Source: Amaricoccus sp.
GTDB lineage: Bacteria; Pseudomonadota; Alphaproteobacteria; Rhodobacterales; Rhodobacteraceae
DNA length: 32,789 bases
Assembly: GCF_017993425.1 (NCBI RefSeq)
Contig: NZ_JAGOMQ010000041.1
Location: forward strand, 1-32,789
Direction of reading: 5' to 3'
Both the position numbers and the translations under genes were made by a program. The notes beneath the pieces were generated by a model. It saw only the letters and a list, made by a program, of their open reading frames with translations. It had not been told where the DNA came from and did not search any database. This document shows, one piece after another, positions 5,984-31,304 of this stretch (position 1 is its first letter; the number at the start of each line of letters is the position of its first letter).

Positions 5984-6028
5984 CACGGTGCGTCCGGGCC
6001 CCCACCTCAGACTCAGCGGGCGATCCGT

Positions 6029-8275
6029 ATGTTCTTTGCGCATTCCCTGCCATCGCGCGACGAAAGCGACTGGCAGACGCTGCTTGCCCACCTGACGGAG
6101 GTCTCCCGTCGCGCCGCCGGATTGGCCCGGGACCTCGGCCTCCCCCTGGCCGCGGCGCTGGCGGGGCTCGCCCATGACCTCGGCAAGTACGACCCGCGCT
6201 TCCAGGACTACATCCGGGGGCGGGGACCGTCGGTGGACCACTCGACGGCGGGCGGGGCGATCCTGATGGAGATCGCGGGGCGGGCCGGAACGGCCGAGGC
6301 GCGGATCGCGGCGGAGGTCCTCGCCTATTGCATCCTCGGCCATCACGCCGGCCTGCCGGATCGCATCAACGACACGGCGGCCTGTCTCGACGCTCGGGTC
6401 GAGCGGTTCGGGAACGGGCTCGATCCGGCGTGGAGGACCGAGCTGGCGTTGAGCCTCGACGGGGTGGCCGCCGAGCTTCTCGCCCATGCGGGGGGCCGGG
6501 ATACGTGGGAGTTCGACCTGTCGGTCGTCGTCCGGATGATCTTCTCCTGCCTGGTCGAGGCCGACTTTCTCGACACGGAAGCCTTCTATGCAGCGAAGGG
6601 AGAACGGACGCCGGACCGCTCCTGGCCGCGGCTGCAGGAGCGCCTGCCGGAGCTGCGCGCCCGGTTCGACGCGCATGTGGCGGGGCTCGGCGCGGGCGGG
6701 GACGTCAATCCGGTCCGTCGCCGCATCCTCGCGCATGTGCGGGAGCGCGCGGACCTCGTGCCCGGCCTCTTCACCCTGACCGTGCCGACGGGGGGCGGCA
6801 AGACGCTCGCCTCGCTCGGCTTCGCGCTCGACCATGCGGCGGCGCACGGGGCCCGCCGGATCATCTATGCGATCCCCTTCACCTCGATCATCGACCAGAC
6901 CGCGGCGATATTCCGGGACGTGCTCGGGAAAGGCGTCGTGCTGGAGCACCATTCCGCCATCGACGAAGAGCGGAACGAGCGACGCGAGGGCAAGGACAAG
7001 CTCCGCCTCGCCATGGAGAACTGGGCGGCGCCGGTGGTGGTGACGACCAACGTCCAGCTCTTCGAGAGCCTCTTCGCCGCCCGGCCGTCGCGGGCGCGCA
7101 AGCTCTGCAACATCGCGGGTAGCGTGATCGTGCTCGACGAGGCGCAGGCCCTGCCGAAAGAGCTGCTCAAGCCGTGCCTGCGGATGCTCGACTGCCTGGC
7201 GCGGCGATGGGGGTGCTCCATCGTCTTCTGCACCGCCACCCAGCCCTCGGTCGAGCAGGCGCTCGAGGGAGAGGTGACGCTCGACCTGCGCGAGCTGGCG
7301 CCGGACCCTGACGACCTTGCGGCGACGCTGCGCCGGGCGCGGATCGTCGATGGCGGCGAGATGGACGACGCCGCGCTGGTCGAGGCGCTGGCGGGCGCGG
7401 ACCAGGGGTTTGCGATCGTCAACAGCCGGGGGCACGCGCTCGAGCTCTTCCGGGAGGCGAAGGCGGCCGGGCTCGCGGGGCTCGTGCATCTGACCACGCG
7501 CCAGACGGCGGCCCATCGGCAGGAGATCCTGGCGGAGGTGCGGCGGCGGCTGAGGGACGGCGAGCCCTGCCGGCTGGTCGCCACCAGCCTGATCGAGGCG
7601 GGGGTCGACGTCAGCTTTCCGCGCGGCTGGCGGGCGAAGGCAGGACTCGACCAGATGATCCAGGCGGCCGGCCGGGTGAACAGGGAGGGAAAATGGCGGC
7701 GAGAGGACAGCCTTCTGACCTTCTTCGCCAACCCGGCCTATCCGACGCCCCCCGAGGTGCGGTCGCTGATCGGCGACGCCGAACGGATGTGGGATGCGCA
7801 TGCGGACGATCCGCAGTCGCCCGCGGCGGTGGCGGCGTATTTCCGGCAGGTCTACGCCCGCCTGCGCCTGAACAAGGGACTGGACCGGAAGAAGATCGTC
7901 GGCGCCTTCACCTGCGGGCGAAGCGGGACGGAGTTCGCGTTCCGGTCGGTCGCGGAGCGGTTCCGGCTGATCGAGAGCGCGATGCTGCCGGTGGCGATCC
8001 CGCGCGGCGAGGCCGCCGGGCAGGTGGAGCGCCTGTGGGCGGCCGAGGTTTCGTCGGGGACGCTGGCGCGCGCGCTGCAACGGCACGTGGTTCTGGTCCC
8101 GGAGCCGGCCCGGCGGCGGCTGCTCGACTGCGGCAAGGCGGAGTTCGTCGCCCCGAAGCTGCGGGGGGATCAGTTCTGCGTCCTGAAGGCCGAGCATCTC
8201 GACCTGTACCATGAGGACAGCGGCCTCTGGTGGGAAGACGCGGAGTATCTGGGCGTGGAGCAGGTGAACATTTGA
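6029..8275 (+). CDS. cas3: CRISPR-associated nuclease-helicase Cas3 (type I-C-like)
   Basis: A 748-residue HD nuclease fused to an SF2 helicase; Cas3 is recruited by Cascade and degrades target DNA. The HD domain shows H21, H49-D50 (AHDLGKYDPRFQDY), H71 and H105-H106. Helicase motifs are Walker A PTGGGKT (253-259), motif Ia YAIPFTSIIDQ, the DEAQ box at 370-373 and FCTATQP, with motif VI QAAGRVNREG further on. The C-terminus (HEDSGLWWEDAEYLG) is intact, so all catalytic elements are present. VPTGGGKTLASLGFAL...IPFTSII is typical of the I-C branch. No cas5, cas8c, cas7, cas4, cas1 or cas2 lies in the window. ATG 6029 is preferred over a GTG at 5978 that sits in a hairpin. Confidence 0.95.
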   Translation: MFFAHSLPSRDESDWQTLLAHLTEVSRRAAGLARDLGLPLAAALAGLAHDLGKYDPRFQDYIRGRGPSVDHSTAGGAILMEIAGRAGTAEARIAAEVLAYCILGHHAGLPDRINDTAACLDARVERFGNGLDPAWRTELALSLDGVAAELLAHAGGRDTWEFDLSVVVRMIFSCLVEADFLDTEAFYAAKGERTPDRSWPRLQERLPELRARFDAHVAGLGAGGDVNPVRRRILAHVRERADLVPGLFTLTVPTGGGKTLASLGFALDHAAAHGARRIIYAIPFTSIIDQTAAIFRDVLGKGVVLEHHSAIDEERNERREGKDKLRLAMENWAAPVVVTTNVQLFESLFAARPSRARKLCNIAGSVIVLDEAQALPKELLKPCLRMLDCLARRWGCSIVFCTATQPSVEQALEGEVTLDLRELAPDPDDLAATLRRARIVDGGEMDDAALVEALAGADQGFAIVNSRGHALELFREAKAAGLAGLVHLTTRQTAAHRQEILAEVRRRLRDGEPCRLVATSLIEAGVDVSFPRGWRAKAGLDQMIQAAGRVNREGKWRREDSLLTFFANPAYPTPPEVRSLIGDAERMWDAHADDPQSPAAVAAYFRQVYARLRLNKGLDRKKIVGAFTCGRSGTEFAFRSVAERFRLIESAMLPVAIPRGEAAGQVERLWAAEVSSGTLARALQRHVVLVPEPARRRLLDCGKAEFVAPKLRGDQFCVLKAEHLDLYHEDSGLWWEDAEYLGVEQVNI

Positions 8276-8456: not shown

Positions 8457-8686
8457 GTTTCGATCCATGCCCCTGCGCGGGGGCGACACGAGCGCCGGTG
8501 CCGGCCCCGCAGTATTCCCCGTTTCGATCCACGCCCCCCGCGCGGGGGGGCGACACGGCGGGGCTGTCCTGTCCCTCATCTCCGCCGGGTTTCGATCCAC
8601 GCCCCCGCGCAGGGGGCGACGGGAGACGATCCTGCACCTGCGCGGCCCGAGCTGGTTTCGATCCACGCCCCAGCGCAGGGGGCCCG
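8457..8686 (-). CRISPR. Short eroded CRISPR array, type I-C-like repeats (4 repeats, 3 spacers)
   Basis: Repeats are at 8457-8487 (31 nt), 8521-8554 (34), 8589-8620 (32) and 8655-8686 (32, far end altered). Spacers are 33, 34 and 34 bp. On the plus strand each begins GTTTCGATCCA(C/T)GCCCC and ends GGGGGCGAC, the reverse complement of the I-C form GTCGCCCC...GGATTGAAAC, so crRNA is expected from the minus strand, against cas3. All four repeats differ: C/T change in the first, enlarged C6/G7 tracts in the second, C-to-A change and a lost GAC end in the fourth. Variation in the C and G tracts changes the length of a stem that still pairs. Spacer targets are unknown. Confidence 0.93.
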
Positions 8687-8748
8687 CCGGCTGGCCCGGG
8701 GGGCGGCGCCGGCCTCGGGGAGCCGCAAGGGCTCCCGCCCGGCCGGCG

Positions 8749-8778: not shown

Positions 8779-9753
8779 TCAGGCGTCTACCTCGATGGCG
8801 AGGCCGCGCTCGCGGGCGACCTCGACGATGCGGGCGGAGACGGCGAGGTCCTGGAGGCCGACGCCGGTGCCGTCGAAGAGGGTGATCTCCTCGGCGGAGG
8901 AGCGGCCGGGATGCGTGCCGTTCACGACGGCGCCGATCGGGGTGATGGCGCTCTCCGCGATCAGGCCGGCGGCGATGGCGTGCTGGCTCTCGCCGATGGT
9001 GATCGCCTGCGCGACCTCGTCGGTGAAGACGGTGGCCTTGGCCAGCAGCGCCGTCTCGATCTCCTGCTTGCCCTTGGTGTCGGTGCCCATGCAGGCGAGA
9101 TGCGTGCCGGGCGAGACGTGGGCGGCGAGGAGCGAGGGGGCGAAGGAGGAGGTGATGGTGATGATGACGTCGGCGGCGCGCAGGCCGTCGAGCTCCACCG
9201 CCTCGAAGGGCAGGCCGACCTCGGCCGCGACCTTCGCGAGGCTCGGCAGCATGTCGGGGTGGAGGTTCCAGGCGACGACCTTCTCGAAGCTCCGCTGCTT
9301 CGCGGCGGCGCGGAGCTGGAAGCCGGCCTGGTGGCCGGCGCCGACCATGCCGAGCACCTTCGCGTCCTTGCGGGCGAGGTGGGCGATCGAGACGGCCGAG
9401 GCGGCGGCGGTGCGGGCGGCGGTCAGGTAGTTGCCGCCGACCATGGCCGAGACGCGCCCCGTGTCGGGATCGAACAGGAACACCGTCGACTGGTGGTTGA
9501 TGATGCCCTTGCCCGGATAGCGCTCGAGGTTGTGCGGCCAGTAGCCGCCGGCCTTGACGCCGAGGGTCCCTCCGGCGCGGTCGAAGCCGCCCTTGAAGCC
9601 GTAGAGGGCGTCGGCGTGGCCGATCGCCTCGCGGATGACCGGGAAGTTGTAGGCGTCGCCGCGGGCCATGGCGGCGAAGACGGACTCCACCGCGACGAAG
9701 GCGTCCTCCATCGAGATGAGCTGCGGGCAGACGGCTTCGGGGACGATGAACAC
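8779..9753 (-). CDS. bhcD: Iminosuccinate reductase (beta-hydroxyaspartate cycle)
   Basis: Last enzyme of the beta-hydroxyaspartate cycle: reduces iminosuccinate to L-aspartate with NAD(P)H, regenerating the amino donor for BhcA. The 324-residue product is of the ornithine cyclodeaminase / mu-crystallin fold: substrate-domain Lys67 in GVKAGGYWP, dinucleotide loop GMVGAGHQAG (135-144), and ITSSFAP followed by GTHLACMGTDTKGK. GTG 9753 is chosen because AAGGA lies 10 bases upstream and the protein then begins MFIVPEA; an in-frame TTG at 9783 would add ten residues. Identification rests on the fixed bhcABCD order as much as on the family, since the family also contains cyclodeaminases and other imine reductases. 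Confidence 0.93.
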   Translation of the reverse strand: MFIVPEAVCPQLISMEDAFVAVESVFAAMARGDAYNFPVIREAIGHADALYGFKGGFDRAGGTLGVKAGGYWPHNLERYPGKGIINHQSTVFLFDPDTGRVSAMVGGNYLTAARTAAASAVSIAHLARKDAKVLGMVGAGHQAGFQLRAAAKQRSFEKVVAWNLHPDMLPSLAKVAAEVGLPFEAVELDGLRAADVIITITSSFAPSLLAAHVSPGTHLACMGTDTKGKQEIETALLAKATVFTDEVAQAITIGESQHAIAAGLIAESAITPIGAVVNGTHPGRSSAEEITLFDGTGVGLQDLAVSARIVEVARERGLAIEVDA

Positions 9754-9785
9754 GGGGGCGCGGTCCTTGAATCGGGGCGGCAAAG

Positions 9786-9811
9786 CCTGCGTATCACGCG
9801 TGATACGCAGG
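9786..9811 (-). promoter_or_regulatory. 26-bp perfect palindrome before bhcD
   Basis: Each arm is 13 bp (CCTGCGTATCACG and its complement), with no interruption at the centre (9798/9799). It lies 32 bp upstream of the chosen bhcD start in the bhcC-bhcD gap. It could be an operator, or an RNA hairpin that tunes bhcD expression. The inner TCACGCGTGA also occurs at 20378-20387, downstream of secA. Confidence 0.6.
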
Positions 9812-9839
9812 TCATGTCGTTGATTTTAAAGGGAAATCT

Positions 9840-9859
9840 CCGCGGCGTCAGCGCCGCGG
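9840..9859 (-). terminator. Hairpin between bhcC and bhcD
   Basis: CCGCGGCG pairs with CGCCGCGG around a 4-nt loop, 15 bp after the bhcC stop. On the minus strand it is followed by AGATTTCCCTTTAAAATC, moderately T-rich, so it may act as a partial terminator that lowers bhcD expression relative to bhcABC. Confidence 0.45.
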
Positions 9860-9874
9860 CAAGCTTTGCAGGCG

Positions 9875-11038
9875 TCAGTAGGCCTTGCCGCGGGCCGAGA
9901 CCGGCCAGAGCGCCTCGACCTTGCCGCCGCGCACGCCGACATACCAGTCGTGGACGTTGCAGGTCGGGTCGCAGTGGCCGGGGACCAGCTTCAGCTTCTC
10001 GTTGATCTTCAGCACCCCGTTCGGGTCGTCGACCACGCCGTGCTCGTCGGAGCACTTGATGTACTTCACGTCGTCGCGGCCGTAGACGAAGGGCAGGCCG
10101 CTGTCGACCGACTGCGCCTTGAGGCCGGCGTCCACCACGGCGAGGTTCGGCTTGGCGTGGGACATGACGCTCGTCAGGATGAAGAGCGCGTTCTCCCACT
10201 CGCCCTGGTCGATGCGCTTGCCGTCCTTGTCATGGATGCGGCCGTAGTCGGCGTCCATGAAGGCGTAGCTGCCGCACTGGAGCTCGTTGTAGACGCCCGA
10301 GTTCGCCTCGAAGTAGTAGCTGCCGGTGCCGCCGCCGGAGACCAGCTCGGGCTTGAGGCCGATGGCGGTCAGCGCGTCGACGGCGTCCTTCACCTGGGCG
10401 ATGGCGGCGTCGAGCTTCTCCTTGCGGGCCTCGAAGCTGTCGAGGTGCTGCATGGCGCCCTGATAGGCCTGGATGCCGGTGAACTTCAGGTTCGGCGCGG
10501 CGTCGATCGCCTTGGCGATCTCCACCACGGCCTCGGTCGTCTTCACGCCGCAGCGGCCGGCGCCGCAGTCGATCTCGACGAAGCACTCGAGCGTCGTGCC
10601 GTGCTTCTGCGCCGCCGCCGAGAGGTCGGCGACGTTCGCCACGTCGTCGACGCAGACGATGATCCGGGCGCCGTATTTCGGCAGGCGGGCGAGCCGGTCG
10701 ATCTTGGCCGGGTCGCGGACCTGGTTCGAGACGAGGATGTCCTTGATGCCGCCGCGGGCGAAGACCTCGGCCTCGGAGACCTTCTGGCAGCACACGCCGA
10801 CGGCGCCGCCAAGCGACTCCTGGAGCTTCTGCACGTCCACGGACTTGTGCATCTTGCCGTGGGAGCGGTGGCGCATCCCGTGCGACTTGGCGTAGTCGCC
10901 CATCTTCTTGACGTTGCGCTCCAGCGCGTCGAGGTCGAGGATCAGGCAGGGCGTCTGGATCTCGTCCACGGACATGCCGATGGCGGCGGGGATGTCGAAA
11001 CCCACCTCGGGCTCGGCGATCTTCTCTTGCTTGGTCAT
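9875..11038 (-). CDS. bhcC: beta-Hydroxyaspartate aldolase
   Basis: Joins glycine and glyoxylate into (2R,3S)-beta-hydroxyaspartate, the carbon-carbon bond-forming step of the cycle. The 387-residue protein is a fold-type III PLP enzyme related to D-threonine aldolase: barrel start with the Schiff-base lysine K62 in RSHGKMHKS, the middle VEIDCGAGRCGV, and the glycine loop SGGGTGSYY. The C-terminal PGHCDPTCNVHDW has His and Asp placed as in the divalent-metal site of D-threonine aldolases. It starts at ATG 11038, with GGGAGGA upstream, 13 bp after bhcB. The gene context separates it from ordinary D-threonine aldolases. Confidence 0.95.
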   Translation of the reverse strand: MTKQEKIAEPEVGFDIPAAIGMSVDEIQTPCLILDLDALERNVKKMGDYAKSHGMRHRSHGKMHKSVDVQKLQESLGGAVGVCCQKVSEAEVFARGGIKDILVSNQVRDPAKIDRLARLPKYGARIIVCVDDVANVADLSAAAQKHGTTLECFVEIDCGAGRCGVKTTEAVVEIAKAIDAAPNLKFTGIQAYQGAMQHLDSFEARKEKLDAAIAQVKDAVDALTAIGLKPELVSGGGTGSYYFEANSGVYNELQCGSYAFMDADYGRIHDKDGKRIDQGEWENALFILTSVMSHAKPNLAVVDAGLKAQSVDSGLPFVYGRDDVKYIKCSDEHGVVDDPNGVLKINEKLKLVPGHCDPTCNVHDWYVGVRGGKVEALWPVSARGKAY

Positions 11039-11051
11039 GGCGTCCTCCCGC

Positions 11052-12029
11052 TCAGGCGTTCCAGGGCAGCTTGTCGAGGTCGACGTTGCCGCCGGTGACG
11101 ATCACGCCGACCCGCTTGCCGGCGAACCTGTCCTTGTTCTTGAGGATGGTGGCGAGCGGCACCGCCGAGCTCGGCTCCATCACGATCTTCATGCGCTTCC
11201 AGATCAGCTTCATCGCGTCGACGATCTCCTCCTCGGTGGCGACGAGGACGTCGGTCACGTGGCGCGAGACGAAGTGCCAGGTCAGATCCTTGAGCGGCAC
11301 CTTGAGGCCGTCGGCGACCGTGTCCGGCGCGTCGTCGGCGATGATGTGGCCGGCCTTGAAGCTGCGGTAGGCGTCGTCGGCGTTCTTCGGCTCGGCCGCG
11401 AAGATCTCGACATGCGGCGCGATGGTCGAGAGCGTCAGGCAGGTGCCCGAGACCATGCCGCCGCCGCCGATCGGCGCGACCACGGCGTCGAGGCCCTCGA
11501 CCTGGTCCATCAGCTCGCGCGAGCAGGTGCCCTGCCCGGCGATCACGCGGGGGTCGTTGTAGGGATGCACGAACTCCGCGCCGCTCTCGGCCACGACCTC
11601 GGCGAAGACCGCCTCGCGCGAGCTGGTCGAGGGCTCGCATTCCACCACGCGGCCGCCGTAGCCCTTCACGGCGTCCTTCTTGGCCTGCGGCGCGGTGCGC
11701 GGCATGACCACCGTGCAGGGGATGCCGCGCCGGCCGGCCGCATAGCTGAGGCAGGTGCCGTGGTTGCCGCTCGAATGCGTGGCGACGCCCTTGGCCGCCT
11801 GCGCGTCGGAGAGGCCGAAGACGGCGTTGGAGGCGCCGCGGGCCTTGAAGGCGCCGGCCTTCTGGAAGTTCTCGCACTTGAAGAACAGCTCGGCCCCGAC
11901 GAGCCCGTTGATGAAGCTCGAGGTCAGGACCGGCGTCTTGTGGATGTAGGGCCGGATGCGCTCGTGCGCAGCCAGCATGTCTTCGAAGGTCGGAATGACG
12001 AGGGTGTCCGCGACGGCGGTCTCGGTCAT
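11052..12029 (-). CDS. bhcB: beta-Hydroxyaspartate dehydratase
   Basis: Removes water from beta-hydroxyaspartate to give iminosuccinate, the substrate of BhcD. The 325-residue protein is a fold-type II PLP enzyme of the threonine dehydratase / serine racemase group: Schiff-base K62 in AGAFKARGA, SSGNHGT for the carboxylate, phosphate loop APIGGGGMVSG, and TGGNVDL near the end. The ATG at 12029 has AGGAAG a few bases upstream and lies 8 bp beyond the end of bhcA. By sequence alone threonine dehydratase or serine racemase activity could not be excluded; its position between bhcA and bhcC decides the call. Confidence 0.94.
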   Translation of the reverse strand: MTETAVADTLVIPTFEDMLAAHERIRPYIHKTPVLTSSFINGLVGAELFFKCENFQKAGAFKARGASNAVFGLSDAQAAKGVATHSSGNHGTCLSYAAGRRGIPCTVVMPRTAPQAKKDAVKGYGGRVVECEPSTSSREAVFAEVVAESGAEFVHPYNDPRVIAGQGTCSRELMDQVEGLDAVVAPIGGGGMVSGTCLTLSTIAPHVEIFAAEPKNADDAYRSFKAGHIIADDAPDTVADGLKVPLKDLTWHFVSRHVTDVLVATEEEIVDAMKLIWKRMKIVMEPSSAVPLATILKNKDRFAGKRVGVIVTGGNVDLDKLPWNA

Positions 12030-12037
12030 GGTCTTCC

Positions 12038-13228
12038 TCACGCGGCGTTGGAGAGCGTGGCGCTCTCGGTGGTCCGATAGTACTCGGCCGCCGCCGCGAC
12101 GCCAGAACCGAGCTTCACCTGCATGCCGAGGTCGGCCATGACCATCTCGGCGCAGGCGAGGCCGGAGAGCGCCATGACGTCGGTCAGCGAGCCGAGATGG
12201 CCGATGCGGAAGACCTTGCCCGCGACCTCGCCGAGGCCGACGCCGAAGGCGACGCCGTACTTGTCCGCCGCATGGACGACGAGCTTCGTGCTGTCGACGC
12301 CCTGCGGCACGACGATGGCGGAGACGGTGTCGGAGTAGAGATCCGGCGACTGGGCGCAGAGCTTCAGCCCCCAGCCGGCGACGCCGCGGCGGACGCCCTC
12401 GGCGATGCGGCGGTGGCGGGCGAAGACGTTCTCGAGCCCCTCCTCCTCGATCATCTTCAGCGACTCGCCGAGGCCGAACAGGAGCTGCACCGGCGGCGTG
12501 TAGGGATAGCCGCCCTTGGGGTTCATGTTGAGCATGTCGCGGAAGTCGAGGAAGCAGCGCGGCAGCTTCGCCGTCTCCATCGCGGCGATCGCCTTGGAGC
12601 TCGCGGCGACGATGGCGAGGCCCGCCGGGAGCATGAAGCCCTTCTGGCTGCCGGTGACGGCGACGTCGACGCCCCACTCGTCCATGCGGAAGTCCATCGA
12701 GGCGATCGAGCTGACGCCGTCGACGAGGAGCAGCGCCGGGTGCCTGGCCGCGTCCAGCGCCTTGCGGACGGCGGCGACGTCGGAGCGGACGCCGGTGGCG
12801 GTCTCGTTATGGGTGACGAGGACGGCCTTGATCTCGTGGCTCTTGTCCGCCTCGAGCACGGCCTGGAACTCGGCCGCCGGCGCGCCGGCGCCCCAGGGGG
12901 CGTTGAGCTGGTGGACGTTCAGGCCGTGCCGGTTGCACATGTCGATCCACTTGTGGGAGAACATGCCGTGGCGGCAGGCGAGGACCTTGTCGCCGGGCGA
13001 CAGGGTGTTGGAGATCGCCGCCTCCCAGCCCGCGGTGCCGGTGGCGGGGAACAGGAACACCTCGCCCTTCTCGGTCTTCAGGACCTTCCGCACGCCCGGG
13101 AACAGCGGCGCGAAGATCGCCGCGAAGCTCGCCGAGCGGTGGTCGAGCGTCGGCATGTTGACGGCGTGACGCAGCCGCTCGGGGATGTTGGTGGGGCCGG
13201 GGATGAAGACCGGGTTCTGGCTGGACAT
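12038..13228 (-). CDS. bhcA: Aspartate-glyoxylate aminotransferase
   Basis: First enzyme of the cycle: transfers the amino group of aspartate to glyoxylate, yielding oxaloacetate and glycine. The 396-residue protein is a fold-type I class V aminotransferase of the alanine/serine-glyoxylate type: GPTNIPERL near the N-terminus, FPATGTAGWEA (59-71), HNETATG (140-146), VDGVSSIASMDF with the PLP-binding Asp170, and Schiff-base K196 in TGSQKGFM. ATG 13228 has GGAGGAA 6 bases upstream; an 19-residue longer frame to 13285 would run over the promoter. It heads the bhcABCD operon and is divergent from bhcR. Confidence 0.95.
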   Translation of the reverse strand: MSSQNPVFIPGPTNIPERLRHAVNMPTLDHRSASFAAIFAPLFPGVRKVLKTEKGEVFLFPATGTAGWEAAISNTLSPGDKVLACRHGMFSHKWIDMCNRHGLNVHQLNAPWGAGAPAAEFQAVLEADKSHEIKAVLVTHNETATGVRSDVAAVRKALDAARHPALLLVDGVSSIASMDFRMDEWGVDVAVTGSQKGFMLPAGLAIVAASSKAIAAMETAKLPRCFLDFRDMLNMNPKGGYPYTPPVQLLFGLGESLKMIEEEGLENVFARHRRIAEGVRRGVAGWGLKLCAQSPDLYSDTVSAIVVPQGVDSTKLVVHAADKYGVAFGVGLGEVAGKVFRIGHLGSLTDVMALSGLACAEMVMADLGMQVKLGSGVAAAAEYYRTTESATLSNAA

Positions 13229-13256
13229 GGCGTTCCTCCGCTTGTCGTTGCCGAGG

Positions 13257-13285
13257 GTTATAGCCCGCGCCGACCGGGGGCGCAA
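13257..13285 (-). promoter_or_regulatory. bhcABCD promoter
   Basis: On the minus strand TTGCGC (13280-13285) and TATAAC (13257-13262) are separated by exactly 17 bp, with the -10 box ending 28 bp before the bhcA ATG. This is one of the best sigma70-like pairs in the window and gives a leader of roughly 20 nt. Confidence 0.65.
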
Positions 13286-13291
13286 TTTTTT

Positions 13292-13306
13292 TGAAATCTT
13301 TTTTCA
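13292..13306. promoter_or_regulatory. IclR-type operator candidate (BhcR site)
   Basis: TGAAATCTTTTTTCA is a 15-bp dyad (TGAAA-N5-TTTCA) whose length and arms resemble the E. coli IclR consensus TGGAAAT-N-ATTTCCA. It sits 6 bp upstream of the bhcA -35 box, between bhcA and bhcR. A second, tighter dyad, TGAA-TTT-TTCA, is at 13349-13359. BhcR of Paracoccus is known to bind this intergenic region; the exact base assignment here is inference. Confidence 0.5.
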
Positions 13307-13433
13307 TAACCTTTGCGACTGCGGTAAGCGCATGGAAAGGCTGGTGTTTGAATTTTTCATGGGATGGACGGGTTTTTCGTTTTATGAATTTGCGGTTGCC
13401 GGGTAAGACGGCGCGAGGAGGAGCGAGTCGCCG

Positions 13434-14258
13434 ATGGAAGCCGTTCCGAAGCGCACGCGCGGCCGGCCGCGCGCCTTCAATCCCGACCCCGAGGCGGGCG
13501 TGGTGCAGTCGCTCGACCGGGCGCTCGCCATCCTCAAGGTGCTGGCCTCGGGCGAGGGGATGAGCCTGACCGAGCTCGCCGAGGCCTCGGGGCAGGCGCC
13601 GGCCACGGTCTATCGCGCGCTCCAGACCTTCGCCGGCCACGGCATGGCCGAGCAGGACCCGGCGACCCAGCTCTGGGCCGTGGGTCCGGAGGCGTTCCGC
13701 ATCGGGGCGGCGTTCCTGACCCGGACGAGCCTCGTCGAGCAGTCGCGTCCCGTGCTGCGCGAGCTGATGGCCGAGGCGGACGAGACGGCGAACCTCGGCA
13801 TCGCCGACGGGGCGGAGGTGGTGTTCCTGAGCCAGGTCGAGACGCAGCAGCCGATCCGGGCGTTCTTCCGGCTCGGGGCGCGCGGGCCGATCCACGCGAG
13901 CGGCATCGGCAAGGCGCTGCTCGCCTTCGGGCCGGAGGCGCGGCTCGCCCGTCTGCTGCGCGCCGGGCCGCTCGGCGCCTTCACGCCGCGGACGCTGGTG
14001 GAGCCGGCCGCGCTCCGCGCCGACCTCGCGGCGGCGCGCGAGCGCGGCTGGGCGATCGACGACGAGGAGCGGACGGAGGGGATGCGCTGCATCGCCGCGC
14101 CGATCTTCAACGAGCACCGCGAGGCGGTCGCCGGGGTCTCGGTCTCCGGGCCGACGCTGCGGGTGACGCCGGCGCGGGCCGACGCGCTCGGCGAGGCGGT
14201 GCGGCGGGCGGCCGACCGCATCACCGCCGCCGTCGGCGGCGACGCGCCGCGGCGGTGA
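13434..14258 (+). CDS. bhcR: IclR-family regulator of the beta-hydroxyaspartate cycle
   Basis: A 274-residue regulator divergent from bhcA. Residues about 23-85 form the winged helix-turn-helix (QSLDRALAILKVLASG...LTELAEASGQAPATVYRALQTF). The C-terminal effector domain has the IclR landmarks GPIHASGIGKALLAF, a DDEE-containing stretch (RERGWAIDDEERTEGMRCIAAPIF) and VAGVSVSGPTLRV. An Arg/Lys-rich N-terminal tail (KRTRGRPR) precedes the DNA-binding domain. In Paracoccus the homologue controls the bhc genes and its DNA binding responds to glyoxylate; that role is inferred here from position. GAGGAG precedes the ATG. A clear intrinsic terminator follows. Confidence 0.93.
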   Translation: MEAVPKRTRGRPRAFNPDPEAGVVQSLDRALAILKVLASGEGMSLTELAEASGQAPATVYRALQTFAGHGMAEQDPATQLWAVGPEAFRIGAAFLTRTSLVEQSRPVLRELMAEADETANLGIADGAEVVFLSQVETQQPIRAFFRLGARGPIHASGIGKALLAFGPEARLARLLRAGPLGAFTPRTLVEPAALRADLAAARERGWAIDDEERTEGMRCIAAPIFNEHREAVAGVSVSGPTLRVTPARADALGEAVRRAADRITAAVGGDAPRR

Positions 14259-15431: not shown

Positions 15432-15462
15432 AAGCGCTCGGGCAAAAAGGGACAGGTTGCGG

Positions 15463-16785
15463 ATGACTGCCGATCTGATCGTCACGCGAGCGACGCTCGT
15501 CACCGCCGACGGCCGTGACGACGGGCGCGGCACGGTGATTCGCGACGGCGCCCTCGCCGTGGCGGGGGGCCGGATCGCCCGCATCGGCACGGCGGCCGAG
15601 ATCGGGACCGACGCCCGCGAGGTGGTCGACGCGGAGGGCGGCCTGCTGGCCCCCGGCCTCGTCAACACCCATTGCCACGCCGGCTGCTCGCTCTTCCGCG
15701 GGCTGGTCGAGGGGCTGCCGCTCGAGCCCTGGCTCCGGCAGGTCTGGAAGGCGGAGGCGGCGATCCTCGACGACCGCACCACCCGGCTCGGCGCCCGCCT
15801 CGGCCTCGCCGAGCAGCTCCTCTGCGGCGTCACCTGCGTGCTCGACATGTACTGGCGCCCGCGCCAGACCGTCGCCGCGGCCCGCGACCTCGGGATGCGC
15901 ATCGCCACCGGGCCGATCTTCTTCGACGGGCCGGGCGTCGACGGCGCGACGCCGGAGGCCCGCATCGCCGACGCCGGCCGCTTCTTCGCCGAGCACGCGG
16001 GCGCGGCCGACGTGCTCCCCGCCGTGCTGCCGCACGGAACCTACACCGTCTCGCCCGACCTCCTCGTCGCCTCGCGCCGGCTCGCCGACGCGGCCGGCGC
16101 GATCTGGTCGACCCACGCCGCCGAGACCCGCGCCGAGCAGGCCGACGTCGCCGCCCGCTACGGCCGCTCCGTCGTCCGCCACCTCGACGCGCTCGGCCTC
16201 CTCGGCCCGCGCACCGTGCTCGCCCACGGCGTCTGGCTCGACGACGAGGAGATCGCCATCCTCGCGGCGCGCGGTGCCGCCGTCGCCCACAACCCGGTCT
16301 CGAACCTCAAGCTCGCCTCGGGCATCGCCCGGGCGCCGGACCTGCTCGCCGCCGGCGTGCGGGTGACGCTCGGCACCGACGGGGCGATCTCCGGCAACGA
16401 CCTCGACCTCTGGCTGGCGCTGCGCCTCGCCGCCATGCTCCACAAGGGCGCGACGCTGCGCGCCGACGCCGTCACCGCGACCCAGGCGCTGGCCATGGTC
16501 ACCCGCGAGGCGGCGGCGGCGCTGGGCGCGGACGACCGCATCGGATCGCTGGAACCCGGCAAGCAGGCGGACATGATCCTTCTCGACCTGCGGCGGCCGA
16601 GCGCCCAGCCGCTCTTCGACCCCGTCACCCACCTCGTCTGGTCGGCGGCGAAGTCCGACGTCCGCCAGGTCTGGATCGGCGGCGCGCGCGTGGTGCGCGA
16701 CGGCGCGCTCGTCCGCCACGACATCGGCGAGACGCTCGACGAGGTGGCGGCGCTCGCGCCCCGGATCGCGGAGGCCGTGGCATGA
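15463..16785 (+). CDS. Amidohydrolase, MTA/SAH (adenosine-type) deaminase-like
   Basis: A 440-residue metal-dependent deaminase of the amidohydrolase superfamily, TrzN/MtaD/SsnA branch. Metal ligands are HxH at 70/72 (VNTHCHAGCS), a His in STHAAETRAEQ, a His in LAHGVWLDD and Asp in LGTDGAISGND; PGKQADMILLDL is the closing small-domain motif. The branch deaminates 5'-methylthioadenosine, S-adenosylhomocysteine, adenosine or related bases. It overlaps the next gene, a purine nucleoside phosphorylase, by ATGA, so nucleoside deamination before phosphorolysis is the most sensible reading. An upstream in-frame TTG at 15457 is possible but ATG 15463, with AGG 8 bases before it, is preferred. Confidence 0.85.
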   Translation: MTADLIVTRATLVTADGRDDGRGTVIRDGALAVAGGRIARIGTAAEIGTDAREVVDAEGGLLAPGLVNTHCHAGCSLFRGLVEGLPLEPWLRQVWKAEAAILDDRTTRLGARLGLAEQLLCGVTCVLDMYWRPRQTVAAARDLGMRIATGPIFFDGPGVDGATPEARIADAGRFFAEHAGAADVLPAVLPHGTYTVSPDLLVASRRLADAAGAIWSTHAAETRAEQADVAARYGRSVVRHLDALGLLGPRTVLAHGVWLDDEEIAILAARGAAVAHNPVSNLKLASGIARAPDLLAAGVRVTLGTDGAISGNDLDLWLALRLAAMLHKGATLRADAVTATQALAMVTREAAAALGADDRIGSLEPGKQADMILLDLRRPSAQPLFDPVTHLVWSAAKSDVRQVWIGGARVVRDGALVRHDIGETLDEVAALAPRIAEAVA

Positions 16786-17621
16786 CCACCCCCTACGCCG
16801 CGCGCGTCGCGGCGGCGCGCGCCAGCGTCGAGCCCCGGCTGGGCGGGGGCCCCGGCGCGGAGGTCGAGATCGGCATGATCCTCGGCTCCGGCCTCGGCGC
16901 GCTCGCCGACCGGGTCGAGGACGCCGTCGCCGTGCCCTTCGCCGAGATCGAGGGGATGCCGGTCTCCACCGCCCCCGGCCATGCCGGGCGGCTGGTCGTC
17001 GGCCGGCTGAACGGCCGCCGCGTGGCGCTGGCGCAGGGACGGCTCCACCTCTACGAGGGCTGGTCGGCGCAGGACGTGGCGCTGCCCGTCTACCTGATGC
17101 GGGCGCTGGGCGCGCGCAGCCTCGTGGTGACCAACGCCGCCGGGGCGCTCGACCCCGAGCTGCGCCCGGCGGACGTCATGGTGATCGAGGACCACCTCAA
17201 CCTCACCGGGGCGAACCCGCTGACCGGGCCGAACGACCCCGGCCTCGGCCTGCGCTTCCCCGACATGAGCCGCGCCTACGACGCCGACCTGCGCGAGCGG
17301 GCCATCGCCGCCGCCGAGGCGGCCGGCCTGCCGCTCGCCCGCGGCATCTATGCCGGCATCGCCGGGCCCTCGCTCGAGACCTCGGCCGAGCGGCGCTGGC
17401 TGCGCTCGACCGGCGCCGACGCGGTCGGCATGTCGACCGTGCTCGAGGTGATCGCGGCGCGCCATGCCGGGCTCTCGGTGCTCGGCTTCGCGGCGATCAC
17501 CAACTCGGCGACCGGCGGGCCGGAGCAGGAGCCCGACACGATCGAGGGCGTGCTGGCGACGGCGGCGGTGGCCGGCAAGACCGTCGCCGCGGTGCTCGAC
17601 CGGCTGTTGCCGCGGCTCTGA
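16782..17621 (+). CDS. Purine nucleoside phosphorylase (trimeric type)
   Basis: Splits inosine- or guanosine-type nucleosides with phosphate into base and ribose 1-phosphate. The 279-residue protein carries the PNP-family signature: phosphate site GMILGSGLGAL (31-41) and PGHAG, the family pattern running through RLHLYEGWS, TNAAGAL, EDHLNLTG, GIAGPSLETSAERRWLRSTGADAVGMSTVLEV, and a final ITNSATG in which an Asn is placed for base recognition. It starts with ATG overlapping the stop of the deaminase gene and is followed 3 bp later by an MFS transporter gene, forming a three-gene nucleoside salvage operon. MTA phosphorylase activity cannot be ruled out. Confidence 0.93.
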   Translation: MTTPYAARVAAARASVEPRLGGGPGAEVEIGMILGSGLGALADRVEDAVAVPFAEIEGMPVSTAPGHAGRLVVGRLNGRRVALAQGRLHLYEGWSAQDVALPVYLMRALGARSLVVTNAAGALDPELRPADVMVIEDHLNLTGANPLTGPNDPGLGLRFPDMSRAYDADLRERAIAAAEAAGLPLARGIYAGIAGPSLETSAERRWLRSTGADAVGMSTVLEVIAARHAGLSVLGFAAITNSATGGPEQEPDTIEGVLATAAVAGKTVAAVLDRLLPRL

Positions 17622-26593: not shown

Positions 26594-27091
26594 TCAGGCC
26601 ACCGTCCAGGGCTCGTCGAAGAAGTGCTCCTCGAGGTTGTTCCCCGTCCCGATCCGGTCGACGATCAGGAAGTCCGCCGGCCGGTCGAGCGGGGTCAGCA
26701 CCCCGTGCCAGACGTTGCGGAGGTAGTTCACCCCCTGCCCGGGCGCGGTCAGGAAGGCGCGCGGCCGCCCCGGACGGCCGCCCTCGTCGGGGGCGACGAC
26801 CACCACGAAGGGATCCGGCCCCAGCGGCACGAAGGCCTGGCTGCCGAGCGGGTGGCGCTCCACCATGTCGAGGGTCAGCGGCAGCACGTAGGGCTGCGAG
26901 CGGCCGATCGAGACGCCGACCCGGCCGTCGCCGGTGACCTCGGTCCGGGCGAGGTCGTGGTGGCGGCGCGCCATGCCGCGGTTGAAGTCGAAGCTGCCGG
27001 GACCGGCGGCGTCGATCACGTCGCCGAACGGCGCGAAGGCCTCCGCCGTCAGCGTCTCCAGCCGCAGGGTGCGGTCGATCACCTCGCTCAC
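26594..27091 (-). CDS. allA: Ureidoglycolate lyase
   Basis: Splits (S)-ureidoglycolate into glyoxylate and urea, the last step of purine-ring breakdown. The 165-residue length is that of AllA. Visible family motifs are FAPFGDVID near the N-terminus, FNRGMARRHHDLA, the strongly conserved PGQGVNYLRNVWHG (about 116-129), and FLIVDRIGTGNNLEEHFF near the end. Translation begins at GTG 27091, overlapping the allE stop (GTGA), so it is coupled to the genes before it. It is the last gene of the minus-strand operon and its product, glyoxylate, is the substrate of the bhc pathway encoded earlier in the window. Confidence 0.95.
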   Translation of the reverse strand: MSEVIDRTLRLETLTAEAFAPFGDVIDAAGPGSFDFNRGMARRHHDLARTEVTGDGRVGVSIGRSQPYVLPLTLDMVERHPLGSQAFVPLGPDPFVVVVAPDEGGRPGRPRAFLTAPGQGVNYLRNVWHGVLTPLDRPADFLIVDRIGTGNNLEEHFFDEPWTVA

Positions 27092-27960
27092 CGCCCGAAC
27101 CCCCCGACGCCGCGCAGCCGGGCGTGGCGGTTGACGTCCTTGTAGAGCAGGTAGCGGAAGCGCCCCGGCCCGCCGGCGTAGCAGGCCTGCGGGCAGAAGG
27201 CGCGCAGCCACATGAAGTCGCCGGCCTCGACCTCGACCCAGTCGCGGTTGAGCCGGTAGACCGCCTTGCCCTCGAGCACGTAGAGCCCGTGCTCCATCAC
27301 GTGCGTCTCCTCGAAGGGGATCACGCCGCCGGGCTCGAAGGTGACGACGGTCACGTGCATGTCGTGGCGGAGGTCGGCCGGGTCGACGAAGCGCGTCGTG
27401 GCCCAGCGGCCCTCGGTGCCCGGCATCGCCGCCGGCGCGATCGTCGTCTCGTCGGTGACCAGCGGGTCGGGGGCGGGCAGGCCCTCGACCGCCTCGTAGG
27501 CCTTGCGGATCCAGTGGAAGCGCGCCGGCGCCTCGCCGGGGTTCCGGAGCGTCCACGGCCGGCCGGGCGGGATGTAGGCGAAGCCCCCGGGCGCCATCCG
27601 GTGCGCCGCGCCGTCGAGCGTCAGCTCCACCTCGCCCTCGACGACGAAGAGCGCGCCCTCGGCCTCCGGGTCGGGCTCCGGCCGGTCGCTGCCGCCGCCG
27701 GGGCCCACCTCCATCACGTATTGCGAGAAGGTCTCGGCGAAGCCCGAGAGCGGACGCGCGATGATCCAGGCGCGGGTGGCGTCCCAGAACGGCAGGGGGC
27801 TCGTCACGATGTCGGAGAAGACGCCCTTGGGGATCACCGCGTAGGCCTCGGTGAACACCGCCCGCCCGGTGTGGAGCGTGGCCTGGTCGGGCAGGCCTCC
27901 GTGCGGAGCGTAATACGGAGCCGGAGCGGCCTGCGGCCGGCGATCTTGCGTGTTCATCAT
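27088..27960 (-). CDS. allE: (S)-Ureidoglycine aminohydrolase
   Basis: Converts (S)-ureidoglycine to (S)-ureidoglycolate plus ammonia. The 290-residue protein is a double cupin (bicupin): the first cupin around residues 75-150 (GALFVVEGEVELTLDG...YIPPGRPWTLRN) and the second around 200-275, with the manganese-site cluster EETHVMEHGLYVLEGKAVY (Glu, two His) and a Gln in WLRAFCPQACYAGG. Two consecutive ATG codons (27960, 27957) follow GGAGGAGGC; either could be used. The start overlaps the deaminase stop and the end overlaps allA. AllC (allantoate amidohydrolase), which would supply its substrate, is not in the window. Confidence 0.9.
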   Translation of the reverse strand: MMNTQDRRPQAAPAPYYAPHGGLPDQATLHTGRAVFTEAYAVIPKGVFSDIVTSPLPFWDATRAWIIARPLSGFAETFSQYVMEVGPGGGSDRPEPDPEAEGALFVVEGEVELTLDGAAHRMAPGGFAYIPPGRPWTLRNPGEAPARFHWIRKAYEAVEGLPAPDPLVTDETTIAPAAMPGTEGRWATTRFVDPADLRHDMHVTVVTFEPGGVIPFEETHVMEHGLYVLEGKAVYRLNRDWVEVEAGDFMWLRAFCPQACYAGGPGRFRYLLYKDVNRHARLRGVGGFGR

Positions 27961-29294
27961 GCCTCCTCCAGGAACCGCCGCGCCGCCGCGCCGTGCTCGG
28001 CGCGCAGGCGGGCGAGGTCGACGCCGACCGGCTGGCCGTCCTCGACGGTCCAGCGTCCGGCGATCATCACGCGGTCGGCCCGGTGGGCCCCGCACAGGAC
28101 CAGCGCGGCGAGCGGGTCGCCCGCGCCGGAGAACCGCAGCTCGTCGAGATCGAAGAGCGCGAGGTCGGCCTGCCTGCCCACGGCGATCTCGCCGATGTCG
28201 GTGCGCCCGAGGCAGGCGGCGGAGCCGCTGGTCGCCCAGCGGAACACGTCATGGTGGCTGACGGTCGCGTCGTAGGTGAGCCGGCTGAGCATCAGCGCGT
28301 GGCGCACCCCCTCCATCAGGTTCGAGCTGTCGTTGGAGGCGGAGCCGTCCACGCCGAGCCCGACCTTGACGCCCGCCGCCTCCAGCTCGCGGGTGCGGCA
28401 CTGGCCGGAGGCGAGCACCATGTTCGAGGTCGGGCAGTGCGAGACGCCGATCCCGGCCGCGCCGAGCCGCGCCACCTCGCCGTCGTCGAAGTGGATGCCG
28501 TGGGCGAGCCAGGTCCGCGGACCCATCCAGCCGACCGACTCGAGGTAGTCGAGCGGGCGCAGGCCGAAGGTCTGGAGGCAGAAATCCTCCTCGTCGCGGG
28601 TCTCGGCGAGGTGGGTGTGCAGGCCGCAGCCGCAGCGGTTGGCGATCTCGGCCGTGCCGGCCATCAGCTCGCGCGTCACCGAGAAGGGCGAGCAGGGGGC
28701 GAGGGCGACCTGGAGCATCGCGCCCTCGGAGGGGTCGTGGTACTTCGCCACCACCCGCTCGCAGTCGGCGAGGATGGCGTCGGCGTCCTGCACCACGCTG
28801 TCCGGCGGCAGGCCGCCGTCCTTGACGCTGAGGTTCATCGAGCCGCGGTTGAGCGTCATGCGCACCCCGAGCGCCAGCGCCTCCTCGGCCTGGATGTCGA
28901 GCGCGTCCTCGAGGCCCGTGGGGAAGACGTACTGGTGGTCGGAGGAGCAGGTGACCCCGGAGAGCATCAGCTCGGTCAGCGCGCAGCGGGTGGCGAGGCG
29001 CAGCGCGTCGGGCGTCAGGCGCGCCCAGACCGGGTAGAGCGACTGGAGCCAGGGGAACAGCTCCTTGTTGATCGCGTCCGGGTGGGCGCGGGTCAACGTC
29101 TGGTAGAAGTGGTGGTGGGTGTTGACGAGCCCCGGCAGCACCACGTGGCGGCTGGCGTCGAAGACCTGCGCCGGGGTCGCCGGCTGCTTGCCGGCCGCCA
29201 CCAGCTCGACGATGCGGCCGCCCTCGACGACCACGCCGCCCTCCGCCCCGGGCGCGAGGATGGCGAGCGGGTCGCGGATCCAGAGCCGGGTCAT
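27957..29294 (-). CDS. 8-Oxoguanine deaminase / guanine-type amidohydrolase
   Basis: A 445-residue zinc amidohydrolase of the ATZ/TRZ branch. Metal ligands are HxH at 60/62 (VNTHHHFYQTLTRA), a His in LHTHLAETRDEE, a His in LAHGIHFDD and the Asp in LGVDGSASNDSSNL. The combination ELFPWLQSLYPVW, SSDHQYVFP and CPTSNMVLASG matches enzymes annotated as 8-oxoguanine deaminase, which turn 8-oxoguanine into urate; guanine or isocytosine may also be accepted. Urate production fits its place between puuE-uraD and allE, with ATGA-type overlaps on both sides. Confidence 0.88.
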   Translation of the reverse strand: MTRLWIRDPLAILAPGAEGGVVVEGGRIVELVAAGKQPATPAQVFDASRHVVLPGLVNTHHHFYQTLTRAHPDAINKELFPWLQSLYPVWARLTPDALRLATRCALTELMLSGVTCSSDHQYVFPTGLEDALDIQAEEALALGVRMTLNRGSMNLSVKDGGLPPDSVVQDADAILADCERVVAKYHDPSEGAMLQVALAPCSPFSVTRELMAGTAEIANRCGCGLHTHLAETRDEEDFCLQTFGLRPLDYLESVGWMGPRTWLAHGIHFDDGEVARLGAAGIGVSHCPTSNMVLASGQCRTRELEAAGVKVGLGVDGSASNDSSNLMEGVRHALMLSRLTYDATVSHHDVFRWATSGSAACLGRTDIGEIAVGRQADLALFDLDELRFSGAGDPLAALVLCGAHRADRVMIAGRWTVEDGQPVGVDLARLRAEHGAAARRFLEEA

Positions 29295-30712
29295 GCGGGC
29301 AGCATGTCGCGCAGGCGCAGGAGCGCGATCCGCTCCACCTGCCGGCAGGCGGTGGCGAACTCCTCGTCGCGGCTGTTGTCGATCCGCCGCTGGAAGGCGG
29401 CGAGGATGTCGTCCTTGGTCAGGCCGCGCACGGCGATGATGAAGGGGAAGCCGAACTTCGCGACATAGGCGTCATTCAGGCGGGTGAAGGTGGCGCGCTC
29501 GTCGTCGGTCAGCGCGTCGAGGCCGGCGCCCGCCTGCTCGGCGGTCGACTCGGGCGTCAGGCGCTTGGCGGCGGCGAGCTTGCCGGCGAGGTCGGGGTGG
29601 GCGGTCAGCACGCCGAGCCGCTCGCTCTCCGAGGCGGAGCGGAAGACCCGCGCCAGCGCGTTGTGGACGCCGCCGGCGGTGTCGTGCGCGGGCCCGAGCT
29701 CGCTCTCCCAGGCGCGCTCGGCGATCCAGGGAGAATGCTCGAACACGCCGCCGAACTTCGCGACGAAGGCATCCTTCGCCATCGTCGAGGGCCGTTCGGC
29801 CGCCGCCGGCGCCGGGTGCCGCTCCGCCCAGTGCTGAGCGATGGCGAGGCGGGTGGGGAACCAGACCCTGTCATGGCCGCGGGCGTAGTCGAGGAAGCGG
29901 GCCAGCGCCGCGGCGCGGCCGGGGCGGCCGATCAGGCGGCAGTGGAGGCCGATCGACATCATCTTCGGCGAGCCCGCCTCGCCCTCGGCGTAGAGGGTGT
30001 CGAAGGCGTCCTTGAGGTACTGGTAGAACTCCTCGCCGTGGGTGAAGCCCGCGGCGATCGCGAAGCGCATGTCGTTCGCGTCGAGGGTGTAGGGGATGAT
30101 GAGCTGCTGCCGGCCGGCGTGCTCGCGCCAGTAGGGCAGGTCGTCGTCGTAGGTGTCGGAGACGTAGTCGAAGGCTCCCGTCTCGGTGACGAGGTCGACG
30201 GTGTTGACCGAGCAGCGGCCGGTGTACCAGCCGCGCGGCGGCTCGCCGGTGACCTCGGTGTGGAGGCGGATCGCCTCGGCGATCTGGGCGGCCTCCTCCT
30301 CGCGGGGCATGTCGCGGTGCTCGACCCATTTCAGGCCGTGCGACGCGATCTCCCAGCCCGCCTCCTGCATCGCCGTGACCTGCGCCGGCGAGCGGGCGAG
30401 CGCGGTGGCGACGCCGTAGATGGTGACCGGGATGTCGCGCGAGGTGAACATCTCGTGCAGCCGCCAGAACCCGGCGCGGGCGCCGTATTCGTAGATCGAC
30501 TCCATGTTCCAGTGCCGCATCCCCGGCCAGGGCTGGGCGCCCGTGATCTCGGAGAGGAACGCCTCGGAGGCCGCGTCGCCGTGCAGCACGCAGTTCTCGC
30601 CGCCCTCCTCGTAGTTCAGCACGAACTGCACGGCGACGCGCGCGCCCCCCGGCCAGTCCGCCGCCGGGGGCTTGCCGCCATAGCCTTGCATGTTCCTCGG
30701 GTAGCGTCGCAC
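29291..30712 (-). CDS. puuE: Fused allantoinase (PuuE type) and OHCU decarboxylase (UraD)
   Basis: A 473-residue bifunctional protein. Residues about 1-305 are the metal-independent PuuE allantoinase of the polysaccharide-deacetylase fold (RYPRNMQGYG, VQFVLNYEEGGEN, GWEIASHGLKW, GWYTGRCSVNT, DDLPYW), opening allantoin to allantoate. Residues about 310-473 are UraD, which decarboxylates OHCU to (S)-allantoin (HPDLAGKLA, STAEQAGAGLDALT, AYVAKFGFPFIIAVRG). It thus carries out two consecutive steps. GTG 30712 is chosen since PuuE proteins begin with such an RYPR stretch; an ATG at 30790 would add 26 residues across the operator region. Its stop overlaps the ATG of the deaminase. Confidence 0.94.
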   Translation of the reverse strand: MRRYPRNMQGYGGKPPAADWPGGARVAVQFVLNYEEGGENCVLHGDAASEAFLSEITGAQPWPGMRHWNMESIYEYGARAGFWRLHEMFTSRDIPVTIYGVATALARSPAQVTAMQEAGWEIASHGLKWVEHRDMPREEEAAQIAEAIRLHTEVTGEPPRGWYTGRCSVNTVDLVTETGAFDYVSDTYDDDLPYWREHAGRQQLIIPYTLDANDMRFAIAAGFTHGEEFYQYLKDAFDTLYAEGEAGSPKMMSIGLHCRLIGRPGRAAALARFLDYARGHDRVWFPTRLAIAQHWAERHPAPAAAERPSTMAKDAFVAKFGGVFEHSPWIAERAWESELGPAHDTAGGVHNALARVFRSASESERLGVLTAHPDLAGKLAAAKRLTPESTAEQAGAGLDALTDDERATFTRLNDAYVAKFGFPFIIAVRGLTKDDILAAFQRRIDNSRDEEFATACRQVERIALLRLRDMLPA

Positions 30713-30769
30713 CGGCGGCCTCCGTCCATCTCTTTTGCGCAAGCCTAGTGCAAGCGAGCCCGGGAGGCT

Positions 30770-30786
30770 TTCAAATTCTCCTTGAA
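30770..30786. promoter_or_regulatory. TTCAA-N7-TTGAA operator candidate, site 1
   Basis: This 17-bp dyad sits in the 232-bp gap between puuE-uraD and uraH, inside a longer shared block (GGCTTTCAAA ... TTGAAGCA, 30766-30789). An imperfect extra half-site (CTTGAGGC) follows at 30791-30798. It is a likely binding site for the regulator of purine catabolism, which is not encoded in the window. Confidence 0.6.
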
Positions 30787-30849
30787 GCATCTTGAGGCTT
30801 CCCAGTGTGCCCGGAGGCGCGGGATTCGCCCCGGGCGGGCCGTGCGGCT

Positions 30850-30944: not shown

Positions 30945-31304
30945 ATGGCCGAAGGCTACGTCACCACCCACGTTCTCGACGCCGCGCGCGGCTGCCCGGC
31001 GGAGGGGCTCGCGATCGAGGTGTTCCGGCTCGACGGCGACAGCCGGCGGCTGGTGCGCCGGCTCGTCACCAACGACGACGGCCGGACCGACGCGCCGCCG
31101 ATCCCCAAGGGCGAGCTGGAGCCCGGGGTCTACGAGTTCGTCTTCCATGCCGGCGCCTATCTCGACGGCGCGCTGGGGCCGTCGGACGGCCCGCGCTTCC
31201 TCGACGTGGTGCCGATCCGCTTCGGCGTCGCCGACGCGACGGCGCATTACCACGTGCCGCTGCTGCTCTCGCCGTTCAGCTACTCGACCTATCGCGGCAG
31301 CTGA
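30945..31304 (+). CDS. uraH: 5-Hydroxyisourate hydrolase
   Basis: Transthyretin-like enzyme that opens 5-hydroxyisourate, the urate oxidase product, to OHCU, which UraD then decarboxylates. The 119-residue protein has the catalytic His9 in TTHVLD, Arg in the FRL/RLVTNDDGRTD region, a His in YHVPLLLSPFSYSTYRGS, and ends in the diagnostic YRGS tetrapeptide. GGGGAGAGAA precedes the ATG. It is divergent from puuE-uraD and shares with it the paired operator-like dyads. Urate oxidase itself is not in the window. Confidence 0.97.
   Translation: MAEGYVTTHVLDAARGCPAEGLAIEVFRLDGDSRRLVRRLVTNDDGRTDAPPIPKGELEPGVYEFVFHAGAYLDGALGPSDGPRFLDVVPIRFGVADATAHYHVPLLLSPFSYSTYRGS

Follow-up and report, generated by a model that had tools for sequence, protein, structure and literature searches.

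The locus studied here raises the question of whether five adjacent genes of Amaricoccus sp. constitute a beta-hydroxyaspartate cycle (BHAC) operon and, if they do, which glyoxylate this cycle would consume. The genes are found in a stretch of 32,789 nucleotides (NZ_JAGOMQ010000041.1), hereafter the window, which is contig C68 of a draft genome of 4.24 Mb in 102 contigs. From the homologies described below, the window is predicted to carry an ordinary and complete BHAC operon, another case of an already known operon type, by which this pathway gains one more genome. More noteworthy are the purine genes found around bhc across genera: the BHAC has been presented as a pathway for algal glycolate, but purine breakdown is indicated far more frequently by the genes next to it. 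Purines as a glyoxylate source are already in print, being named together with allantoin in the introduction of PMC11323563, and no report of a linkage of the BHAC to purine or ureide genes was found in the open-access literature.

Identity and distribution of the bhc operon

A preliminary description of this locus had proposed four intact enzyme genes in the order bhcABCD with a divergent bhcR, and all five were confirmed by the open frames read at 8779-14258 (Table 1). The catalytic lysines that it had assigned (K196 in BhcA, K62 in both BhcB and BhcC) were also found at those numbers. Gaps calculated from the coordinates were 8 nt between bhcA and bhcB, 13 nt between bhcB and bhcC and 121 nt between bhcC and bhcD; a TTG at 9783, which is the choice of the ORF list, is a possible alternative start of bhcD. 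The proposed Bhc identity of enzymes and regulator was borne out, since 5 of 5 proteins scored above the curated NCBIfam equivalog cut-offs and no rival model shown reached its own. Identities with the Paracoccus denitrificans proteins were 69.6, 76.8, 84.0, 65.1 and 54.1% for BhcA, BhcB, BhcC, BhcD and BhcR, respectively, and the bhcRABCD genes of this bacterium (Pden_3922-3918 region; L203 is strain HAMBI_2443) have the same order and the same divergent regulator as those of the window.

Bhc enzymes do belong to the superfamilies of serine-glyoxylate aminotransferase, threonine dehydratase, D-threonine aldolase and ornithine cyclodeaminase, and the four enzymes could accordingly be clustered generic paralogues of these kinds. 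In a BhcB tree of 40 rows, whose groups (21 Bhc and 19 paralogue rows) were defined beforehand at 60% identity and which omits L132 (internal stop), L138 (partial) and paralogues without locus, a 100/100 branch separated the BhcB of the window, that of P. denitrificans and 19 others from 19 dehydratase paralogues, so that BhcB did not group with the threonine dehydratases. The paralogue tree was made for BhcB alone, and BhcA and BhcD were distinguished by family cut-offs. BhcC was separated from D-threonine aldolases by score, its best solved relative being 6qkb (747 bits) and the runner-up D-threonine aldolase (319.6 bits). For BhcD the best solved relative was 6rqa (435 bits), followed by alanine dehydrogenase (143.7 bits), and no solved chain named BhcA or BhcB was present among the matches listed, one of these listings being the best 60 of 127. 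Operon order is, in addition, preserved across many genera. The curated cut-offs of the five proteins and the BhcB tree ruled out the generic paralogues, to which we give practically no credence. The expectation that single-gene annotation would miss the pathway held in part: the P. ferrooxidans record CP038202 carries generic names only, whereas NCBIfam models name all five proteins and RefSeq records already do so.

The bhc operon is widespread and known, because matches were found across named loci, in the own genus and in a class-wide draw. A scan of a genome collection gave, as its best 80 loci, BhcC identities of 82-90%, the nearest named genome by BhcC among the matches listed being that of Amaricoccus solimangrovi (90%), and bhcA, bhcB, bhcC and bhcD were all in the examined stretch at 70 of these 80 named loci. 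One match labelled Spirulina is probably a contamination. Within the genus, BhcC of at least 77% was detected in eight of 11 genomes, the other three having distant relatives only, and 14 of the 386 genomes drawn class-wide passed the BhcC cut-off. The attribution of the cycle to marine alphaproteobacteria was too narrow, as matches also came from rhizobia, Methylobacterium, Ancylobacter and the gammaproteobacterium Marinobacterium.

The BHAC reaction set of P. denitrificans is named in PMC11166783. By homology, BhcA would transaminate glyoxylate to glycine with aspartate as the amino donor, and BhcC would join this glycine to a second glyoxylate to give beta-hydroxyaspartate; BhcB would then remove water to form iminosuccinate, and BhcD would reduce this to aspartate. 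The net conversion of two glyoxylate into one oxaloacetate with no carbon lost, established for P. denitrificans, would apply here as well. A complete BHAC operon, with BhcR predicted to act at a palindrome and with glycolate and purines as probable glyoxylate sources, is almost certainly the explanation of this locus.

Table 1. Features predicted in the window (strand + or -; scores in bits against the cut-off of each model).
Feature	Position	Strand	Details
bhcA, L-aspartate:glyoxylate aminotransferase	12038..13228	-	396 aa; K196 in TGSQKGF; NF045640 724.9 vs 650
bhcB, beta-hydroxyaspartate dehydratase	11052..12029	-	325 aa; K62 in GAFKARG; lineage B1; NF045641 612.2 vs 550
bhcC, 3-hydroxy-D-aspartate aldolase	9875..11038	-	387 aa; K62; NF045642 775.9 vs 690
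bhcD, iminosuccinate reductase	8779..9753	-	324 aa; GTG start; NF045643 573.5 vs 500
bhcR, IclR-family regulator	13434..14258	+	274 aa; divergent from bhcA; NF045644 388 vs 350
Candidate BhcR operator TGAAAAAAGATTTCAAAAAAATTG	13283..13306	-	in front of bhcA; 0 mismatches to pattern
Candidate bhcA promoter	13257..13285	-	TTGCGC (13285-13280), 17-nt spacer, TATAAC (13262-13257); inferred from sequence
Perfect 26-nt palindrome CCTGCGTATCACGCGTGATACGCAGG	9786..9811		in the bhcC-bhcD gap
Ureidoglycolate lyase (releases glyoxylate)	26594..27070	-	PF04115; NF009932 196 vs 160
(S)-ureidoglycine aminohydrolase / allantoicase bicupin	27088..27960	-	NF008373 529 vs 445; NF040771 496.5 vs 350
8-oxoguanine deaminase	27957..29294	-	NF006055 667 vs 532
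Allantoinase PuuE fused to OHCU decarboxylase	29291..30790	-	listed ORF, start approximate; TIGR03212 528.7 vs 424.6; TIGR03164 214.8 vs 96.25
5-hydroxyisourate hydrolase	30945..31304	+	TIGR02962 119.1 vs 87.45
Purine nucleoside phosphorylase family domain	16869..17609	+	PF01048; adjoins amidohydrolase 15457-16785 (+)

Probable glyoxylate sources and the gene neighbourhood of bhc

Two glyoxylate sources are probable in this genome. One is glycolate, through a glcDEF-like cluster on another contig (C102), and the other is purine breakdown through the ureide cluster of the window, whose genes are seen and whose flow towards glyoxylate is presumed. This cluster is located 12-17 kb past bhcR and contains 5-hydroxyisourate (HIU) hydrolase, 2-oxo-4-hydroxy-4-carboxy-5-ureidoimidazoline (OHCU) decarboxylase, allantoinase, allantoicase/ureidoglycine aminohydrolase and ureidoglycolate lyase (AllA), the last being the only such lyase found in the genome and reaching a subfamily cut-off only. 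The homologues of 8-oxoguanine deaminase and HIU hydrolase lie beyond bhcR in the window and after bhcD in P. denitrificans. Isocitrate lyase was not found in the draft genome, nor was any glyoxylate carboligase (Gcl) over the cut-off (best score 312 vs 711.2 bits), both absences being tentative in an assembly of 102 contigs. The Gcl-GlxR-GlxK (glycerate) route loses CO2. In E. coli and Pseudomonas aeruginosa this route is, as the BHAC would be here, a specialist sink for allantoin-derived glyoxylate (PMC12694930), a situation unlike that of the present genome with regard to Gcl. As described for Pseudomonas aeruginosa in the same paper, allantoin breakdown yields no acetyl-CoA alongside glyoxylate and a specialist route is therefore needed.

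The neighbourhood of bhc was surveyed by profile search with five ureide markers (allA, bicupin, puuE, uraD and hiuH) and three glycolate-oxidase genes, up to about 11 kb from bhcC. The 111 loci include two duplicates (L102 = L002 and L105 = L071), leaving 109 distinct ones, with some genomes contributing two. In counts that ignore kinship among loci, with score thresholds placed by eye at gaps of the score lists and with some flanks ending at contig ends, at least one ureide marker was near bhc at 49 of the 109 distinct loci and at least two at 27, while at least two of the three glc genes were near bhcC at only 2 of 109. By origin, the loci with one or more ureide markers were 43 of the best 80 named loci, 2 of 11 own-family loci and 4 of 20 class-wide loci (14 above the BhcC cut-off plus 6 below). 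Neither ureide nor glc genes were present in any of 20 control regions of 20 kb, taken from 13 of the same genomes at round-number positions chosen by hand and not at random. One of the two glc-linked loci (L168) has bhcC without bhcA, bhcB or bhcD over the threshold; there glcDEF is directly followed by bhcC, and a short frame after bhcC may be a bhcD remnant.

These counts bear on the possibility that the BHAC serves glycolate alone in this organism and that the purine genes of the window are there by chance. The glcDEF-like genes of the genome agree with it, as do the studies of P. denitrificans that tie BhcR and the BHAC to glycolate (PMC11323563). Moreover, none of the six same-genus loci has any of the five ureide markers in the examined bhc flank, allA being 74 kb away from bhcC in G010 and roughly 220 kb away in G006. 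The ratio of 49 to 2 loci in favour of ureide genes, found in many layouts and set against empty controls, argues the other way, and we regard a service to glycolate alone as unlikely, though by no means negligible.

It was also considered that the neighbourhood could stem from gene order passed down by descent, or from a mobile replicon in common, with no working link. Paracoccus contributes 28 of all 49 cases (28 of its 30 loci are ureide-linked), bhc often sits on plasmids or chromids, and a sample drawn evenly from the class yields 4 of 20 loci only. Against this, ureide genes lie upstream, downstream or on both sides of bhc and in both orientations, in 21 layouts, and at least one linked case was found in 13 of 30 genus or group labels; when Paracoccus was removed, 15 of 50 named loci were still linked. 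In P. ferrooxidans (CP038202), furthermore, bhcD is followed on the same strand by purine permease, 8-oxoguanine deaminase and uraH genes, with gaps of 39, -1 and 17 nt. For these reasons inheritance or a common replicon appears rather improbable as the whole cause of the neighbourhood.

Other genera gave different arrangements. Alloyangia pacifica carries, on plasmid NZ_CP022191.1, the same bhc operon with ureide genes close to it. There bhc is embedded in a purine island, in which xdhABC, a permease, guaD and ureidoglycine aminohydrolase precede bhc and a symporter, ureidoglycolate lyase, puuE and puuD follow it; in the window, other genes intervene. In Pseudosulfitobacter, xdhABC, guaD and bicupin are upstream of bhc and a nucleobase transporter is placed between bhcC and bhcD.

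The furthest-reaching reading of these data is that, in much of the group carrying it, the BHAC serves chiefly as a carbon-saving sink for purine-derived glyoxylate and stands in for the Gcl of the E. coli and Pseudomonas allantoin regulons, with algal glycolate as a second and often unlinked use; that the Paracoccus genes for purine permease, 8-oxoguanine deaminase and HIU hydrolase may be the tail of the bhc operon; and that bhcB circulates as two lineages replacing one another in place. As a whole it is proposed tentatively, its chance of being right falling a little short of even. Several points weigh against the explanation given above for this locus. The same-genus loci described above lack ureide markers near bhc, so that in this genome the link, at a distance of 12-17 kb, is suggestive only and the general one is based on other genera. 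GlcD and GlcE, although best matches, remained under the (E. coli-like) cut-offs and GlcF alone was above, and one malate synthase domain in the genome means that another glyoxylate sink exists. If purine use were common, estimates of glycolate turnover based on bhc gene counts would need care, and the proposed role, if true, would add a carbon-saving link between the scavenging of purine nitrogen and carbon supply.

The purine nucleoside phosphorylase and amidohydrolase genes of the window are both near bhcR in three of six same-genus loci as well. Outside the five-marker count, an adenine deaminase gene (TIGR01178) is found two genes from bhcR in Nitratireductor (L022, 3001-4764). Genome G184 has two complete bhc operons (L163 and L164), one adjoining ureide genes and the other not. 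Genes for EDTA or iminodiacetate use were looked for near the second Chelativorans copy, where a relative of FAD amino-acid dehydrogenases was present and no model reached its cut-off. A tRNA-Ala(CGC) gene is located at 20185-20271 of the window.

BhcR and its candidate operator

A candidate BhcR operator pattern, TGAAAnnnnnTTTCAnnAAAATTG, was identified before bhcA in the gaps between divergent bhcR and bhcA. It was present at no more than 3 mismatches in 79 of 86 gaps (the window included and one genome counted twice), 23 of them exact, and in 2 of 1720 mononucleotide shuffles used as control, the pattern having been derived from the same gaps in which it was counted. Its position is mostly 74-82 nt ahead of the bhcA start. 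The P. denitrificans palindrome has 3 mismatches, compared with none in the window. The likely -35 box of bhcA begins with the TTG of the pattern (TTGCGC in the window; Table 1). For P. denitrificans, a palindrome ahead of the -35 region of bhcA has been reported as a possible BhcR site (PMC11323563); our footprint agrees with that report in its position and would extend it over many genera. BhcR would sense glyoxylate and work at a palindrome immediately ahead of this -35 box, the footprint being observed and the binding predicted.

The operator of the window is the sole site of the genome at no more than 3 mismatches and, as a consequence, BhcR looks like a local switch. For the same reason, control of the ureide or glc genes of this genome by BhcR was unsupported. 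In 2.16 Mb of loci, seven further matches to the pattern were detected, five before bhcA and the remaining two just before bhcD (L041) and upstream of ureide bicupin and bhcR (L047).

With residues placed in IclR numbering by spacing, the oxygen-binding positions G160, I161, D212, S239 and S241 agree by alignment with those of P. denitrificans BhcR in Table 1 of PMC11323563; of four "patch" positions, two (A146 and M220) match and the other two differ, with P for T at 143 and G for S at 154. The candidate operator offers an exact site for the study of BhcR, which is reported to be an activator partly released from DNA by glyoxylate.

Lineages of bhcB and the bhcC-bhcD gap

Quick trees (FastTree) of the window, L002-L081, L103-L112, L203 and L204 split bhcB into two lineages of 37 and 41 sequences over 78 complete operons, the window belonging to B1 and P. 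denitrificans to B2. Lineage membership requires one change on the tree of bhcB itself (split support 0.926) and 13 on that of bhcA, bhcC and bhcD, where shuffling gave a mean of 26.1. Applied to bhcA and bhcD, this test gave 2 and 3 changes, respectively, and it was uninformative for bhcC. Between P. versutus and P. kondratievae, identities are 97, 79, 93 and 91% for A, B, C and D, respectively. Five residues distinguish the lineages, and one of them, residue 57 (K or E), sits five before the catalytic K62. The simplest reading of these data would be a repeated in-place replacement of bhcB within otherwise coherent operons.

The bhcC-bhcD gap of the window, with its palindrome, is unlike that of P. 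denitrificans. CCTGCGTATCACGCGTGATACGCAGG occurs in the genome at one exact place and at one other with 3 mismatches. Inverted repeats with arms of at least 8 nt are present in 27 of 104 bhcC-bhcD gaps, their sequences being unlike, and other loci of the own genus also have dissimilar hairpins in this gap. In three of them (L002, L103 and L106), CCTGGAGAGCAGTCG is shared just before the hairpin and is absent from the gap of the window.

Beyond bhcD, the window contains a lone type I-C cas3 at 5978-8275 (+) (PADLOC Cas3c, 666 bits), whose upstream neighbour at 4760-5971 matched no PADLOC model. After cas3, four imperfect repeats GTTTCGATCCAYGCCCC at 8457-8690, spaced by 64-68 nt, end just beside bhcD, and cas3 and repeats together look like a decayed CRISPR remnant.

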